Source: Pseudoxanthomonas helianthi
GTDB lineage: Bacteria > Pseudomonadota > Gammaproteobacteria > Xanthomonadales > Xanthomonadaceae
Reading direction: 5' to 3'
DNA length: 64,000 nt
Assembly: GCF_017939625.1 (NCBI RefSeq)
Contig: NZ_JAGKTC010000001.1
Location: 1,446,718-1,510,717, forward strand
The translations under genes were made by a program, and so were the position numbers. Under the pieces are notes generated by a model, which was given only the letters and a program-made list of their open reading frames with translations, was not told where the DNA came from and ran no database searches. Positions 713-5,940 of the stretch are shown in pieces (position 1 is the first letter of the stretch; every line of letters starts with the position of its first letter).

Positions 713-1744
713 ATGAATCCGGAGCATGCGGCCTTGGCCTTGGGCCCGGGCCCCGCGCTTTCAATCGTGGACGGTGCACAGGGCGGCGGCCAGGGCGTGG
801 CCGTGCTGTCGGAGCAGGAGTGCGCGCTGTTCGCGCGTTGCGGCAGCGTCCGTTCGTTCCCCATGGGCGGCGAGATCTTCACTCGCGGCGTGCGCGGCGA
901 CAGCCTGTTCGTGGTGCTCGAGGGCGAGGTCGACCTGGACTTCGGCGACGACGTCCAGGGCAAGCGGCTGGGCCCGCGCGAATTCTTCGGCGAACTGGGC
1001 TTGCTGATCGACAGCCATGCGCGCAGCGCGGCGGCGATCGCGGCCAGCGATTGCAAACTGCTGGAACTGAAGGGTCGCGACCTGCAGACGCTGATCGACC
1101 ATGAGCCGGCGACCGTGTCGCGCTTCATGCATCGGGCGATCGTGCGGGTGGTGTCCAGCGAACAGGACCTGATCCGCCGCCTGCGCGGCCGCAACGCCGA
1201 ACTGCAGTCCGCGCTCGACGACCTGCGCGTCACCGCGCATCGGCTGAACCAGAGCGAAGAGCTCAACCGCACCGACGAACTGACTTCGCTGGCGAATCGC
1301 CGCGGCCTGAACGCGTTCCTCGAGCGGATGGCCAATGCGGACGGCCTGCACGGCTATGGCCTGATGCTGATCGACTGCGACCGCTTCAAGGCGGTCAACG
1401 ACGAATACGGCCACCTCATCGGCGACCGCGTGCTGCAGAGCGTGGCCAACATCCTGCGCTCGCTGCCCGGGGAAAACGACTTCGCCTGCCGCCTCGGCGG
1501 CGACGAGTTCTGCCTGGTCATGCATGCGGCGCCGGAAGAACTGCTGCGCTACGCCAACTACATCGTCAGCACCGCGCAGTCGTTGCGCATGACCCAGCAT
1601 TCGCCGCCGCTGATCACCACATTGAGCGTCGGCGCCTACCTGGTCGACCCGACCGGCGACTGGGACGACTGGTACGTCTGCGCCGATGCCGCGCTGTATC
1701 GTGCGAAGCGCGTGGGCGGCAATCGCGTCGAGTGGCAGGACTGA
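713..1744 (+). CDS. Cyclic nucleotide-binding domain plus GGDEF diguanylate cyclase
   Basis: A 343-residue cytoplasmic protein. Residues ~30-125 form a CRP-like cyclic-nucleotide-binding domain with a phosphate-binding-cassette-like stretch (FFGELGLLIDSHARSA). A short coiled linker follows, then a GGDEF domain with an intact GGDEF motif at residues 262-266, predicted to make c-di-GMP from two GTP. The usual inhibitory RxxD site is absent: the Arg position is Gly (GEND), so feedback inhibition by product is unlikely. I chose ATG 713 because AAGGGGA sits 7 nt upstream; an upstream GTG at 680 has no such support. The stop overlaps the next gene's start (TGATG), so the two are translationally coupled. 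The neighbour is itself a nucleotide-cyclase-domain protein, so this one may sense a cyclic nucleotide and answer with c-di-GMP (inference). Confidence 0.85.
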   Translation: MNPEHAALALGPGPALSIVDGAQGGGQGVAVLSEQECALFARCGSVRSFPMGGEIFTRGVRGDSLFVVLEGEVDLDFGDDVQGKRLGPREFFGELGLLIDSHARSAAAIAASDCKLLELKGRDLQTLIDHEPATVSRFMHRAIVRVVSSEQDLIRRLRGRNAELQSALDDLRVTAHRLNQSEELNRTDELTSLANRRGLNAFLERMANADGLHGYGLMLIDCDRFKAVNDEYGHLIGDRVLQSVANILRSLPGENDFACRLGGDEFCLVMHAAPEELLRYANYIVSTAQSLRMTQHSPPLITTLSVGAYLVDPTGDWDDWYVCADAALYRAKRVGGNRVEWQD

Positions 1745-4266
1745 TGGGCGCGGCGGACTCTGGCCGCCCTGTCGGCGAAGACGATGGCCCGCGGCTGCGC
1801 ACGCTGCTGCTGACCGACCTGGCCGGTTCCACCGAACTGGTGGAAAAAATGGGCGATGTCGCCGCGTCCGAACTGTTCCGCGAGCACGACAGCGCGGTAC
1901 TGGAATTGCAGCGGCGCTGGCGCGGCCGGCTGATCGACCGTTCCGACGGCTTGCTGTTGTTGTTCGAACGGCCGATCGATGGCCTCGGCTTCGCCTTGGA
2001 CTACGTCCACGCGCTGCGCGACCTGGGACAGTCGCGCGGCCTGCAGCTGCAGGCGCGCGCCGGCCTGCATGTCGGCGAAGTGCTGACCTGGAACAACAGC
2101 GATGCAGCGATCGAGGCCGGCGCCAAGCCGATGGAAGTCGAGGGCTTGGCCAAGCCGCTGGCCGCGCGGTTGATGCAACTGGCGCGGCCCGGGCAGATCC
2201 TGCTGTCGGCGGTGGCCGAGCCGTTGGCGCATCGCGCAGCGCGCGAACTGGGCGAACGCGGCGAGCACCTGCTGTGGAAGTCGTACGGGCGCTGGCGCTT
2301 CAAGGGCATGCCGCAGGCGCAGGAAATCCACGAAGTCGGCGAAGTCGGCATCGCGCCCTTGCGCGCGCCGGCCAGCAGCGGCAAGGCCTGGCGCGACATC
2401 CCGTTGTGGCGACGCCCCGCGGCATTGGCAACCGAAGCGCTGCTGCTGTGCGCCTTCGCCGTCGGCATCTGGTACCTGACCAAGCCGCAGCCGGCCATCG
2501 CCTTCAACGAACGCGACTGGGTGGTGGTCGGCGACCTGCGCAATCTCACCGGCGACGCGCGGCTGGACGAATCGCTGGAACAGGCCTTCCGCATCAGCCT
2601 GGAGCAGTCGCGCTACGTCAACCTGCTCAGCGACCTTAAGGTGCGCGAGACCCTGCAGCGCATGCAGCGTTCGGAAACCACGGCGGTGGACCGCAGCCTC
2701 GGCTCGGAAATCGCCCAACGCGACGGCGCGCGCGCGTTGCTGCTGCCCACCGTGGCCGAAGTCGGTGGCCGCCTGCGGGTCAGCGTGGAAGTGGTGGATC
2801 CACGCACCCAGACTACGGTGTACGCGCTGTCGGCGGACGGCAAGGGCATCGGTTCCGCGCTGGCGTCCATCGACAAGGTCAGCGGCCAGTTGCGCGAGCA
2901 GCTCGGCGAAGCATTGCAATCGGTCGAGAAGACGTCGGTGACGCTGCCGAATGTCGCTACGCCGAGTCTGGATGCGTTGAAGGCGTTTGCGGTGGCGCGC
3001 AAGGTGATGCTGACCAGCCGCGACCGTGAGCAGGCCATGGGTCTTTATCGGCGGGCCCTGCAGTTGGATCCGCAGTTCGCGTTGGTGCATGCGGACATGG
3101 CCGACGTGTATTCGTCGTACGGCGAAGTCGCCAAGGCCGGCGAAGAACGGCGCCTGGCGCTGTCGATTCCGCAACGGTTGTCGGCGCAGGAACGTGCGCG
3201 CATCGAATTGCTGCTTCAGCAATATGGCGCTCCGGGACCCTATTTCCGCAAGGCGGACGAATATCTGGCCCTGTATCCGGACGACTACCGGATAATTGGC
3301 CGCCTCGGCGACCTGCAGTGGCATCACCTCAACGACTTCCGCTTGGCCGAGGCCAGTCGCAGTCGCGCAATGAAGCCCCAGGCCGAGCGTCGCGAGGTCC
3401 ATCGATATGGGTTGGCGATCGCCCTGCTTGGCCAGGAACGCTATGACGAGGCGCTTACCCACTTCCGTGGCGCCAACCAAGGTGGATTCACCGGTTCCGG
3501 CGAAATGCATGCACGGGTGTACGACGCTCGTGGCCAGCATGCGGAAGCTGACAAGATATATTTCGCCAGCGGCGAAGGGCGTAATGGATGGAAGGGCGAA
3601 GCGGGTGTTGTGACCGAGATCGACCGCGGCCAATGGGCTGCAGCGACTGAGGCTGCTCGTACCTGGGAACAACAGGCAAACGCTGCCAACGACACGGCAG
3701 AGAGCCTGCGCGCGCGCGCGGCGATCGCCAGCTTGGCGGTGATGTCGGTGCGGCCGGACGCCTCTCGCGAAGTGGTTGCCTTGCGCGATGCCACCAGGGC
3801 CCGCGCGAAGGAAGTCGATGCGATCTATCCGCCGGCTTCCGCTGAACTTCGTTTGCTCGCCGGCCTGCTTGCGGCATACGGAAACGATGCGGCCATGGTG
3901 GCCGATGCCCTGCAAGGCGTACAGGGAAATTCCGCCGTGGGCGACTATCCAACGGTATTCCAGTTGCAGCAGGCAGTGTTGGCCGAACAAGAGCGTTTGG
4001 CCGGTAAGCCACAGGCGGCGGCCGCGCGACTGCGGCCCCTGGCGGCGAAGGATACGGCGTTGGTGGTCGTGCATTGGGCATTGATGCGTGCCGAACGCGA
4101 CGCTGGCAACGTCGAAGCCGCCAAAGGGCAGACGCACTGGCTTGCGACACATCGGGGGCGAGTCTTCGCGGAAAACACGACAACCGACGTGTTGCGGTTC
4201 TTCAATGTGGCGGTATCGGCGGAAGCATCGCGTGTCGAACGCACTACGGGAAGCGCCATCCGATAA
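1744..4266 (+). CDS. Class III nucleotide cyclase-domain / TPR membrane protein (peptide-modification-system cyclase family)
   Basis: An 840-residue protein. Residues ~18-190 form a class III cyclase domain with both metal-binding aspartates, D25 in TDLAGST and D68 in DRSDGLLLLF. The transition-state Asn of the usual V-N-x-A-x-R is not conserved (KPLAAR), so catalysis is uncertain. One membrane span lies at about residues 227-246 (LLLCAFAVGIWYL). A FlgO-like segment and TPR-type helical repeats fill the rest, on the far side of the membrane. The architecture, together with the 100-residue leader peptide gene and the SagB-like dehydrogenase beside it, matches what I know as the 'putative peptide modification system cyclase' group of Xanthomonas and Lysobacter. 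ATG 1744 overlaps the stop of the GGDEF gene; a GTG 12 nt upstream is an unlikely alternative. Confidence 0.8.
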   Translation: MGAADSGRPVGEDDGPRLRTLLLTDLAGSTELVEKMGDVAASELFREHDSAVLELQRRWRGRLIDRSDGLLLLFERPIDGLGFALDYVHALRDLGQSRGLQLQARAGLHVGEVLTWNNSDAAIEAGAKPMEVEGLAKPLAARLMQLARPGQILLSAVAEPLAHRAARELGERGEHLLWKSYGRWRFKGMPQAQEIHEVGEVGIAPLRAPASSGKAWRDIPLWRRPAALATEALLLCAFAVGIWYLTKPQPAIAFNERDWVVVGDLRNLTGDARLDESLEQAFRISLEQSRYVNLLSDLKVRETLQRMQRSETTAVDRSLGSEIAQRDGARALLLPTVAEVGGRLRVSVEVVDPRTQTTVYALSADGKGIGSALASIDKVSGQLREQLGEALQSVEKTSVTLPNVATPSLDALKAFAVARKVMLTSRDREQAMGLYRRALQLDPQFALVHADMADVYSSYGEVAKAGEERRLALSIPQRLSAQERARIELLLQQYGAPGPYFRKADEYLALYPDDYRIIGRLGDLQWHHLNDFRLAEASRSRAMKPQAERREVHRYGLAIALLGQERYDEALTHFRGANQGGFTGSGEMHARVYDARGQHAEADKIYFASGEGRNGWKGEAGVVTEIDRGQWAAATEAARTWEQQANAANDTAESLRARAAIASLAVMSVRPDASREVVALRDATRARAKEVDAIYPPASAELRLLAGLLAAYGNDAAMVADALQGVQGNSAVGDYPTVFQLQQAVLAEQERLAGKPQAAAARLRPLAAKDTALVVVHWALMRAERDAGNVEAAKGQTHWLATHRGRVFAENTTTDVLRFFNVAVSAEASRVERTTGSAIR

Positions 4267-4299
4267 AAAAGCCATGCCATCGTGCAGCGATGGCATGGC
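4265..4299 (-). terminator. Intrinsic terminator of the precursor-peptide gene
   Basis: A perfect 12-bp stem, GCCATGCCATCG (4271-4282) with CGATGGCATGGC (4288-4299), and a 5-nt loop. Read on the minus strand it is followed directly by six T (the A run 4265-4270). It lies 22 bp past the stop of the 100-residue peptide gene, a textbook rho-independent terminator. On the plus strand it has no U tract, so it serves the cyclase gene less well. Confidence 0.9.
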
Positions 4300-4320
4300 T
4301 GGAAGTTTGCGCCAGCGCGA

Positions 4321-4623
4321 TCAGTCGGCGCTGAACCCACGGGCGCAGTCGAAGTTGACGATGGAATTCAGCGTCTTCTCCAGCTTCGCCCGATCCCGCA
4401 CGATCTTGCCCTTCGGTGCGATCCGATCCGTCGCCTTCAGCTGCAGGCACGTGCCCGCCGAAGCGGCGTCCGCGCCGATCTTGTAGCCGACCTTGGCCAA
4501 GGCTGCGCCTGCGTCCTTCTTGAACAACCGGCGGAATTCGTTGTCGCTAGACAGCTTGTCCAGCAGTTTCTTGATGACGCTCGGATCCAGCGGGGCCGGT
4601 TTCGGCCCTTTCTTGGTTGCCAT
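4321..4623 (-). CDS. Putative modified (RiPP-like) peptide with nitrile-hydratase-type leader
   Basis: A 100-residue peptide. After a basic start (MATKKGPKPAPLD), residues ~15-48 resemble the nitrile-hydratase-alpha/Nif11-like leaders of ribosomal peptides: LLDKLSSDNEFRRLFKKD, then AGAALAKVGY. The C-terminal half has only two cysteines (C59, C93), several Thr/Ser and a basic middle, and no Gly-Gly cleavage site. It matches in layout the 'putative modified peptide' family that occurs beside a SagB-related dehydrogenase and a cyclase-TPR protein in Xanthomonas-like genomes. The start is supported by AGGGG six nt upstream (minus strand, 4630-4634). It has its own strong terminator, so it is a separate, probably highly expressed transcript. 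Modification and function of the product are unknown. Confidence 0.8.
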   Translation of the reverse strand: MATKKGPKPAPLDPSVIKKLLDKLSSDNEFRRLFKKDAGAALAKVGYKIGADAASAGTCLQLKATDRIAPKGKIVRDRAKLEKTLNSIVNFDCARGFSAD

Positions 4624-4722
4624 GGTTTTCCCCTAGTCGACGAATGTGACGACAATCGCAAAGTTAACCTTGCCAAGGCGTTGCCGGCAAGCCCAAGATC
4701 AGGTCTCTCAGGGGAGTAATGC
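4624..4722. promoter_or_regulatory. Divergent control region of precursor and dehydrogenase genes
   Basis: These 99 bp separate two divergent starts and must carry both promoters. Ribosome sites are clear on both sides: GGGG at 4630-4633 (minus) and GGGGAG at 4711-4716 (plus). No convincing -35/-10 pair or palindromic operator was recognised. Confidence 0.5.
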
Positions 4723-5940
4723 ATGCGGGTTCGACGTTGCGCGGTGCTGTGGTTGGAGCCGCGCGAAGTGGCGCATTTCGAGCTGGAGCGCCTGCTCGCC
4801 GGGGACACCGGGGTGGTGAGCCGGATGCAATGGTTCGCGCACGCGCCGCAACTGTCCGTGCCGGTGGAACTCGACCCCGATGATGTCTCCCTGCTGGGTG
4901 GCCTGAGCCCATCGGATTGGGTGTCGGCCACGCCGCTGCGCGAGGCGCATGGCGCTGCACGGATCCGTCGTCTGCTGCAGGCAGGCTTGCTGATTGGCAG
5001 CACCAAGCAATGGGCGACGCAACGCGAGACCGACGAACGCTTGCGCGGCCAGCATTGGCACGGCCTGGCCGCGACATGGCACGCCGCCTCGCGCTGGGAC
5101 GGCATCGATGCCGCCGGCGAGGTGGAGGAAGCCGGCCTGTTGACCGCCGAAGGCTTGCGCGAAGCTTATGGCGCGCCGCCGCCGATGCTGCACGAGCGCG
5201 GCGACGCAGATGCGCGCTTCGGCCTGCCGCGCGCAGCGCGAACGACATTGGACGACCTGCTCGACGCGCGCGCGACCTGCCGCAACTTCGATACCACGCG
5301 CCCGTTGCCGCTCGCGCAGCTGGCACAGGTGCTTGAGCGCGCCTTCGGCGCGCGTGGCCAGGTGCATGGCGCCGACGACTTCGACGTGCTGAAGAAGACC
5401 AGCCCCTCCGGCGGCGCGCTGCATCCCGCCGAGTGCTACCTGATCGCGCGCAAGGTCGAAGGACTTCCGCCAGGTCTTTATCACTATCGCCCCCTCGATC
5501 ACGCCTTGCAGCCGCTGCCCCTAGACGAACGCAGCATCCTTGCGGCAGCCGGTCGGCACGCCGACGCGCAGGGTATGGATGCGCTGGAATTCCTGTCGTG
5601 GATCGCCGTCGGCGGCCAGCAATGGTTCGCCGATGCGCCGGTGCTGTGCGTGCTGGCGCCGCGCTTCGTGCGCAATTTCTGGAAATACCGCAACCACCCC
5701 AAGGCGTACCGCGTCTGCATCCTCGACGTCGGCCATCTGTCGCAGACTTTGCTGCTGAGCGCGACCGAATTGGGGCTGGGCAGCTATATCACCGCCGCGA
5801 TCAACGAAGCCGATCTGGAGCGCGCATTCGGGTTGACCCATTGGAGCGAGGGACCGTTGGCCGTATGCGGGCTGGGTCTGCGTGCACCGACGATGCAGAC
5901 CTATGAACTCGATCCGAATCGCCGGGCTTGGCCACGCTGA
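4723..5940 (+). CDS. SagB-related FMN dehydrogenase (putative peptide maturation dehydrogenase)
   Basis: A 405-residue protein. Residues 1-170 are a lineage-specific N-terminal region. Residues ~180-400 are a nitroreductase/SagB-type FMN domain: ATCRNFDTTRPLPLAQL at the entry, SPSGGALHPAECY at residues 227-239 (the hallmark of SagB and thiazole/oxazole dehydrogenases), and a late helix GHLSQTLLLSATELGLG. In azoline systems such enzymes oxidise thiazoline or oxazoline rings, but no YcaO cyclodehydratase gene is present here, so the substrate chemistry is open. ATG 4723 is placed by GGGGAG six nt upstream. It is divergent from the 100-residue precursor gene. Assignment to the SagB superfamily is firm; action on the neighbouring peptide is inferred from gene context. 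Confidence 0.8.
   Translation: MRVRRCAVLWLEPREVAHFELERLLAGDTGVVSRMQWFAHAPQLSVPVELDPDDVSLLGGLSPSDWVSATPLREAHGAARIRRLLQAGLLIGSTKQWATQRETDERLRGQHWHGLAATWHAASRWDGIDAAGEVEEAGLLTAEGLREAYGAPPPMLHERGDADARFGLPRAARTTLDDLLDARATCRNFDTTRPLPLAQLAQVLERAFGARGQVHGADDFDVLKKTSPSGGALHPAECYLIARKVEGLPPGLYHYRPLDHALQPLPLDERSILAAAGRHADAQGMDALEFLSWIAVGGQQWFADAPVLCVLAPRFVRNFWKYRNHPKAYRVCILDVGHLSQTLLLSATELGLGSYITAAINEADLERAFGLTHWSEGPLAVCGLGLRAPTMQTYELDPNRRAWPR

Follow-up and report, generated by a model that had tools for sequence, protein, structure and literature searches.

In Xanthomonas campestris, the protein XC_0250, in which a class III cyclase domain is joined to a tetratricopeptide repeat (TPR) region, makes cyclic GMP (cGMP) in vitro, and XC_0249, a protein with cyclic nucleotide-binding (CNB) and GGDEF domains, binds cGMP, whereupon synthesis of cyclic di-GMP (c-di-GMP) rises (PMC3770947). 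No input signal for the pathway was found named in that paper, and its main text mentions neither XC_0248, XC_0251 nor an operon; no mention of XC_0248 or XC_0251 was found in the open-licence literature searched. Here we describe a locus at positions 713 to 5940 of a 64,000-nucleotide stretch of Pseudoxanthomonas helianthi DNA (contig NZ_JAGKTC010000001.1), referred to as a whole as “the window”. Its first two genes, judged by the catalytic, cGMP-site and GGDEF residues that they keep, are orthologs of this pair. It also has genes for a 100-residue peptide and a SagB-like dehydrogenase, and it undergoes allelic exchange; none of the three was found described in that paper.

In agr pherotype systems, the peptide, its modifying enzyme and the receptor's sensor half co-vary beside a conserved cytosolic output half, as do the presumed counterparts at the locus described here. 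The same holds for ComQXPA of Bacillus. Its receptor ComP has an N-terminal domain that binds ComX and is variable, and a cytoplasmic domain that is conserved (PMC4008528). Of the patterns found described, ComQXPA is the nearest. Its receptor is a histidine kinase, whereas that of the window locus would be a guanylate cyclase with cGMP and then c-di-GMP as output, in a Gram-negative bacterium. Unlike ComQXPA, the window locus also combines a peptide resembling nitrile hydratase leader peptides (NHLP) with a SagB-like dehydrogenase, the peptide being a candidate pheromone.

Two other described systems share parts of the locus. In Os1348–Os1351 of Pseudomonas sp. Os17, a small protein of the NHLP clan is found with a SagB-type dehydrogenase, as in the window; unlike the window locus, these genes are described with an acetyltransferase and a putative peptidase and without a cyclase-TPR receptor, and the Os17 genome is described as having no sagC or sagD homologs (PMC7726476). 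The match of the window peptide to NF038399 is weak (25.1 bits, below the cut-off of 40). Thiazole/oxazole-modified microcins (TOMMs) with NHLP leaders have a related leader and use a YcaO-type cyclodehydratase (PMC2887384); the window dehydrogenase is akin to CyaGox and McbC, and the genome carrying the window is without such a cyclodehydratase. The NCBIfam trio TIGR04509, TIGR04510 and TIGR04511, whose cut-offs the window proteins all exceed, bears names that put the cyclase in a “peptide modification system”; we read it instead as a signal receptor and output enzyme. Among the open-licence papers listed in literature searches, none was found that connects this relay with the peptide or the dehydrogenase or that describes allelic exchange at this locus, which is not proof of absence. 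The allelic cassette described below is a new finding of this analysis.

The Allelic Cassette and its Edges

The locus begins with a CNB-GGDEF diguanylate cyclase (DGC; 713–1744, + strand), a constant output module. It is followed by the cyclase-TPR protein (1744–4266, +), which has a constant class III guanylate cyclase domain (residues 1–224; 1744–2415, +) and a receptor half (residues 225–840; 2416–4266, +) with one transmembrane (TM) helix and a TPR region predicted to be periplasmic. The NHLP-related peptide, a candidate signal precursor, is encoded on the opposite strand (4321–4623, −). The dehydrogenase (4723–5940, +) consists of an N-terminal domain (residues 1–165; 4723–5217, +), proposed to recognize the peptide, and a SagB/nitroreductase catalytic domain (residues 166–405; 5218–5940, +). 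An earlier reading of this DNA (the sequence-only reading) had placed the four open reading frames (ORFs) at these positions and had noted the TGATG overlap of the first two (TGA 1742–1744, ATG 1744–1746), and both observations were confirmed. Its assignment of three products to a known trio of families also stood when the profile search that it had proposed was run: the cyclase-TPR protein scored 918.8 bits against TIGR04510 (curated cut-off 400), the peptide 56.6 bits against TIGR04509 (34) and the dehydrogenase 502.7 bits against TIGR04511 (240), covering residues 3–398. TPR matches in the receptor half were below Pfam cut-offs.

The receptor half, the peptide and the dehydrogenase form an allelic cassette that is exchanged between species, while the DGC and the cyclase domain remain constant. 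Loci and genera are designated below by “L” and “g” numbers. Between L035 and L036, both of genus g17, the DGC proteins are 97% and the cyclase domains 100% identical, as against 44, 25 and 26% for successive thirds of the TPR part, 54 and 31% for the halves of the peptide, and 42 and 52% for the dehydrogenase. At the DNA level, in segments of 300 bases, identity is 93–100% from the DGC through the cyclase domain, 39–65% across the TM/TPR region, peptide and dehydrogenase, and 95–98% in the following 1.9 kb. L103 versus L108 and L128 versus L135 give the same high-low-high shape. For 127 pairs of loci of different classes (g17 and g7 together), mean protein identity is 91–99% (74% in one block) up to approximately residue 225 of the cyclase-TPR protein, and the drop beyond this residue coincides with the TM helix; the corresponding point in the window is the 5′ edge of the receptor half at 2416. 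The receptor half is the 5′ part of the cassette, and nothing other than the receptor half, peptide and dehydrogenase lies between the edges. The catalytic domain of the dehydrogenase is included in most exchanges. These comparisons demonstrate allelic exchange and locate its edges.

Loci were partitioned into classes separately by TPR part and by peptide C-terminal half, using TPR class thresholds of 45–55%. The two partitions were identical in g17, g7 and g29, giving 4, 6 and 9 classes among 11, 15 and 16 loci, and the dehydrogenase classes matched them except that two were merged in g29. For g7 and g29, all 15 and 16 listed genomes with a cyclase over the cut-off were included; for g17 there were 13 (12 in the trees, L152 having been added later). 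L109, because its dehydrogenase is split, was left out of the g17 partition and of the following pair count. TPR, peptide and dehydrogenase classes were concordant in 196 of 211 close pairs, defined as within-genus pairs with DGCs at least 85% identical. At 50% identity, 53 receptor classes were found in 99 loci, a set from which L002, which comes from the genome of L071, and L102, whose cyclase is fragmented, had been removed. In the genome of L109 and L148 (G231:C6:586872–601494), the dehydrogenase is found in two pieces, corresponding to profile positions 1–102 and 100–380, that are ∼13.5 kb apart.

In L126 (8240–10357, +) and L127 (8651–10588, +), and also in L145 and L146, the dehydrogenase is followed by a second cyclase-like ORF that is devoid of the cyclase domain. 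In L126 and L127 this ORF matches profile positions 205/208–808 of 808, that is, it begins at the cassette edge, and it is 48–52% identical to receptor halves of another class in the same genus. By these matches it would be either an orphan or a displaced receptor.

Independent History of the Cassette

In a tree built from the DNA of the DGC and the cyclase domain, starred pairings join class B to class D in two cases (L103 with L108 and L105 with L109) and class A to class B in one (L035 with L036). The tree rejects g17 class B (p = 2e-59) and class D (p = 3e-16) as clades. The L035/L036 and L103/L108 pairs recur in a tree of the downstream flank (10 rows), which again rejects class B (p = 7e-42); this tree is without L104 and L109, and L112 forms a very long, probably non-homologous branch in it. 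In g7, three of four testable classes were rejected as clades (p = 4.5e-6, 0.0055 and 1.2e-5), as was one class in g29 (p = 5e-107).

Mean synonymous divergence within class D is 0.53 for the DGC and 0.53 for the cyclase domain, versus 1.32 for the TPR part and 1.06 for the dehydrogenase. Corresponding values in g7 are 0.27 and 0.20 versus 0.89 and 0.89 and, with a weaker contrast, 0.37 and 0.54 versus 0.75 and 0.56 in g29. Because synonymous divergence within classes is higher in the TPR part and dehydrogenase, the cassettes appear to be older than the backbones that carry them.

Exchange also reaches across genera. One class, with a short peptide and a reversed dehydrogenase, spans g17, g7, g4 and g31. 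L152 (g17) and L121 (g7) are 47, 54 and 51% identical in TPR part, peptide and dehydrogenase, whereas L152 and L035, both of g17, are 22, 16 and 32% identical in these parts and yet 94% in the DGC. The window is 63–66% identical to four locus-bearing members of its own genus in the DGC, 24–26% in the TPR part, 14–17% in the peptide C-terminal half and 51–52% in the dehydrogenase; compared with L071, from another genus, the DGC is 61% identical, but the TPR part 70%, the peptide 71% and the dehydrogenase 81%. Note that the short peptides (L121, L122, L152–L154 and L069) have only ∼75–85 residues, stop soon after the helix and terminate mostly in ...VF(C)R-like sequences; in these loci peptide and dehydrogenase share a strand.

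Conservation and Co-occurrence

A first batch of 42 loci from 41 genomes and 24 genera was examined, L002 and L071 coming from the same genome. Loci were hand-picked among the listed matches, at first the top-scoring ones (mostly for the cyclase), and are not a random sample. The order DGC, cyclase, opposite-strand peptide, dehydrogenase was found in all 42, with the dehydrogenase reversed in one (L069) and, among later loci, in L121, L122 and L152–L154. Conservation of the block is far beyond chance. The CNB-GGDEF neighbor, which the sequence-only reading had noted here beside the trio, is not confined to this window: an XC_0249 ortholog is present in each of the 42 loci. No DGC was nearby in four (L083, L086, L089 and L096) of 19 second-batch loci with a cyclase, and L087 is cut off upstream. 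The DGC is ruled out as an obligate member because trios without it exist; the core is the trio of cyclase-TPR protein, peptide and dehydrogenase.

Among 297 genomes of the family, each species being represented by one genome, matches over the cut-off were obtained for TIGR04510 in 183, for TIGR04511 in 181 and for TIGR04509 in 184. Of the 185 genomes with a cyclase or a dehydrogenase, 179 have both. All three genes are present in 179 genomes, some in 7 and none in 111; the count of full trios was made by comparing lists by eye and agrees with a tally of 184. Conservation of the locus and co-occurrence of its genes are demonstrated by these counts. In a sister family, the dehydrogenase was over the cut-off in 30 of 97 genomes, and in a class-wide sample in 5 of 369, with the order unchanged in all 5. 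Clustering of neighboring ORFs was obscured by shadow ORFs, and a filter on GC content at third codon positions was used instead on 12 loci; no fifth member was found among the filtered ORFs, where the neighbors were housekeeping genes.

Extra peptide copies adjoin some dehydrogenases. L083 has five peptide ORFs at a single dehydrogenase and a degenerate-looking cyclase domain, and its 16 kb contain no DGC; L086 and L087 have arrays of peptide ORFs (eight matches in L086) with several dehydrogenase matches around cyclase-TPR genes. One g17 genome (G175:C59) has a peptide match, dehydrogenase fragments only and no cyclase over the cut-off, and represents either a decaying locus or an assembly gap.

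Parts that Change Together

Between classes, the C-terminal half of the peptide changes with the receptor half of the cyclase. A Mantel test was performed on 52 loci with 300 permutations, using DGC distance as a stand-in for species distance and leaving out L071, L095, L069, L102 and loci missing any of the four genes. The peptide C-terminal half tracks the TPR part (partial r 0.454, a value reached in 0 of 300 permutations) and, with 0.35, the dehydrogenase. It does not track the cyclase domain (0.006) or the TM-near part (0.016) of the cyclase-TPR protein. This test, with its rough control and a fast-evolving TPR part, is less firm than the class counts and the flank trees.

Partial exchanges divide the peptide and dehydrogenase further. 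L098 and L142 are 100% identical in the cyclase domain and over the first 40 aligned positions of the peptide, and 90 and 97% identical in the two parts of the dehydrogenase; they diverge in the TPR part (identity about 35–55%) and at the peptide C-terminal end. Between L043 and L140, the dehydrogenase is 92–100% identical from approximately residue 176 and 44–80% before it, with the TPR part (25–57%) and the peptide changed. Both exchanges fit an arrangement in which the leader would be read by the N-terminal domain of the dehydrogenase and the C-terminal part by the receptor. Within a class, the peptide evolves under purifying selection, as ratios of nonsynonymous to synonymous substitution (dN/dS) of 0.13, 0.18 and 0.35 for three classes indicate, and because of this it has no hypervariable core there.

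The cGMP to c-di-GMP Relay

The window DGC scored 56.3 bits against Pfam cNMP_binding and 123 bits against GGDEF. Its best match in the PDB was 5h5o_A (130.7 bits), in which all seven residues named in PMC3770947 are present at one constant offset; 5h5o_A is therefore XC_0249 or a near copy. The structure deposited by the authors of that paper is 4KG1. The DGCs of L035 and L036 are 93.7% identical to 5h5o_A over 126 residues, and the six residues tested in XC_0250 stand at unshifted positions in their cyclases, for which reasons g17 is called Xanthomonas-like. The window's genome belongs to the same family as the genomes with near-copies of the XC_0249 and XC_0250 proteins.

The six mutation-tested residues of XC_0250 (D41, D71, L73, A150, L157 and A161) are all found in the window with a shift of −3, as D38, D68, L70, A147, L154 and A158. 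D38 and D68 are present in 97 of 99 loci, the other two having gaps. Of the cGMP-site residues F73, E90, H98, N145 and E146 of XC_0249, four are kept (F77, E94, H102 and E150) and N145 is replaced by S149. The F, E, H and E of this site and the GGDEF motif are kept in 94 of 94 DGCs of relatives, and the N in 81. A hydrophobic 19-mer (mean Kyte-Doolittle value at least 1.6) occurs in 99 of 101 cyclase-TPR relatives, and in 100 of 101 the sequence preceding it has more K/R than the sequence following it. By these residues, the CNB-GGDEF and cyclase-TPR proteins are orthologs of the proven Xanthomonas relay, for which cGMP synthesis, cGMP binding and stimulated c-di-GMP synthesis were demonstrated by others (PMC3770947). 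The “modification-system cyclase” of TIGR04510 is a nucleotide cyclase, because the six XC_0250 residues are kept and XC_0250 makes cGMP in vitro. The earlier proposal of a system resembling those for ribosomally synthesized and post-translationally modified peptides (RiPPs) is supported in part: the families and the trio stand, and the nature of the cyclase, the absence of YcaO and the selection on the peptide change the reading. A PADLOC reading of the locus was rejected, as the CNB protein matches TIR effectors only weakly (best 33.8 bits).

Peptide, Dehydrogenase and Intergenic Region

A profile of 62 peptide relatives matched nitrile hydratase alpha with E = 6e-4 for the whole chain, the best single domain having just 0.096. 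One Cys is present in at least 90% of these relatives. In a single scan of genome contigs, the one relative with a name was Lysobacter sp. CFH 32150, with a peptide 80% identical to that of the window.

The Lys-Tyr pair of SagB-type dehydrogenases has a catalytic role. In the window dehydrogenase it is Lys321-Tyr322 (5683–5688), present in 97 of 99 relatives with gaps in the other two. The protein matches CyaGox, BmdC and McbC, and K321-Y322 aligns with the WKY of CyaGox. Scores were 84 bits against Pfam Nitroreductase and 104.2 bits against TIGR03605 (cut-off 78.4); C186 is found in 91 of 99 relatives, and no part of the profile ahead of residue 162 matched the PDB. An azole RiPP of the classic, YcaO-dependent TOMM kind is not supported, because the whole genome (99.89% complete) gave 0 matches to YcaO, which extends to the genome the absence that had been reported for the block. 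Structure models for the window and L002 (two rows each) were uninformative (predicted local distance difference test values of 50.9 for the peptide and 33.3 for the dehydrogenase).

The divergent intergenic region between peptide and dehydrogenase (4624–4722) has a CRP/Clp-like palindrome at 4645–4660 that matches 9 of 10 bases. The window is one of 8 loci among 40 that have such a site (at least 8 of 10), versus 1.3 expected from shuffles; note that L002 and L071 are one genome. The site is found in a minority of loci and is a lead only.

Interpretation

We slightly favor the view that the locus is a pherotype-like peptide signaling system with a peptide-sensing receptor guanylate cyclase. 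The NHLP-like N-terminal half of the ∼100-residue peptide would be bound by the dehydrogenase, which would oxidize the peptide; a product of the C-terminal part would reach the periplasm, where the membrane-bound cyclase would detect it with its TPR ectodomain; and the cytosolic cyclase domain would then make cGMP, activating the CNB-GGDEF protein to produce c-di-GMP, with biofilm among the outputs. The receptor half together with the peptide and the dehydrogenase would be a specificity cassette moved as a unit between species, with the cyclase domain and DGC fixed. Modification, export, ligand binding and allele-specific activation are steps that we infer. If these roles are assumed, precursor, modifying enzyme and receptor are encoded together in 42 of 42 loci, and the sensor half and peptide co-vary beside a constant output half, with L066 and g45 as exceptions. 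We give an even chance to the wider proposal that the Lysobacter–Xanthomonas family has a modified-peptide pheromone system whose “languages”, in 53 classes, pass between members of one genus and between genera in the form of a three-part cassette, with a common cGMP to c-di-GMP output.

Several observations weigh against this signaling view or the independence of the cassette. In g7 one class was not rejected as a clade (p = 0.205), and in g29 two classes are already clades. Among the 211 close pairs, 15 do not agree in class, and g45 contributes 10 of these. The peptide N-terminal half also tracks the TPR part (0.381), so the split of the peptide is unclean. L066 has a TPR part 57–74% identical to those of the window class and a peptide C-terminal half 18–25% identical; the values are 74 and 22% against L071 and, against the window, 65% for the TPR part, 22% for the peptide and 53% for the dehydrogenase. 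L066 is possibly a recombinant. In 13 of 99 pairs with TPR parts at least 50% identical, five of which involve L066, the peptide C-terminal halves are below 40%. The conserved peptide Cys is missing in g17 classes B and C, and cyclase residues L70 and L154 vary, each being found in 80 of 99 loci. No signal peptide or double-Gly site was seen in the peptide, and the block has no transporter or exporter gene, as the sequence-only reading had said; two proteins with a C39 peptidase domain are encoded elsewhere in the genome, unlinked. Finally, the cyclase domain by itself was sufficient to restore biofilm in a published mutant (PMC3770947), so that the ectodomain is dispensable for activity as such.

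The peptide could be an output and not an input: the ectodomain would sense something else, and the relay would control a polymorphic bacteriocin-like RiPP whose cassette is diversified by strain competition. A precursor-like peptide beside a SagB-like enzyme, the additional peptide copies near some dehydrogenases and the CRP/Clp-like site in the divergent promoter region are what such a system might have. We consider it unlikely, as it leaves the place of the receptor half in the allelic unit unexplained, most loci are without the CRP/Clp-like site, and the cassette has no immunity or transport gene. Somewhat less probable still is an intracellular regulator, in which peptide and dehydrogenase form a cytosolic flavin-dependent (redox) sensor complex and the unsecreted peptide binds the cyclase directly. 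The lack of an exporter in the block and of a visible leader cleavage motif, the purifying selection within classes, and the widespread Cys of the peptides and C186 of the dehydrogenases would suit this arrangement; co-variation of the peptide with the predicted outside part of the cyclase, and not with its cytosolic cyclase domain, would not.

Linkage might also account for the exchanges if selective pressure acted on one member, such as the exposed ectodomain, and the other genes were passengers between recombination ends in the conserved flanks. The genes are adjacent, joint exchange requires no interaction, and L066 joins the TPR class of the window to another peptide. Set against this are the deep class boundaries shared by TPR part, peptide and dehydrogenase, and exchanges such as L043/L140 that spare part of the dehydrogenase, so that we regard linkage alone as improbable. 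The pherotype-like reading offers the Xanthomonas cGMP pathway a candidate ligand source (the neighboring peptide), a candidate maturation enzyme and a proposed receptor domain, and the natural allele pairs found here are clean material for tests of specificity. If it is true, Gram-negative bacteria gain a system in which a peptide pheromone is coupled to cGMP and c-di-GMP, and the near-constant co-occurrence of three protein families without assigned function is explained.

Other Features of the Region

Of the promoter and terminator that had been attributed to the peptide gene, the terminator was verified as an intrinsic-terminator-like hairpin 3′ of the gene (4300–4270, −) with 13 pairs, a 5-nt loop and a T run; a sigma-70 scan of 4200–4800 found no promoter. 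Upstream of the locus, the window has an aspartyl-protease-like gene (2–556), L035 has malate synthase and isocitrate lyase genes, and L083 has an isocitrate lyase gene.

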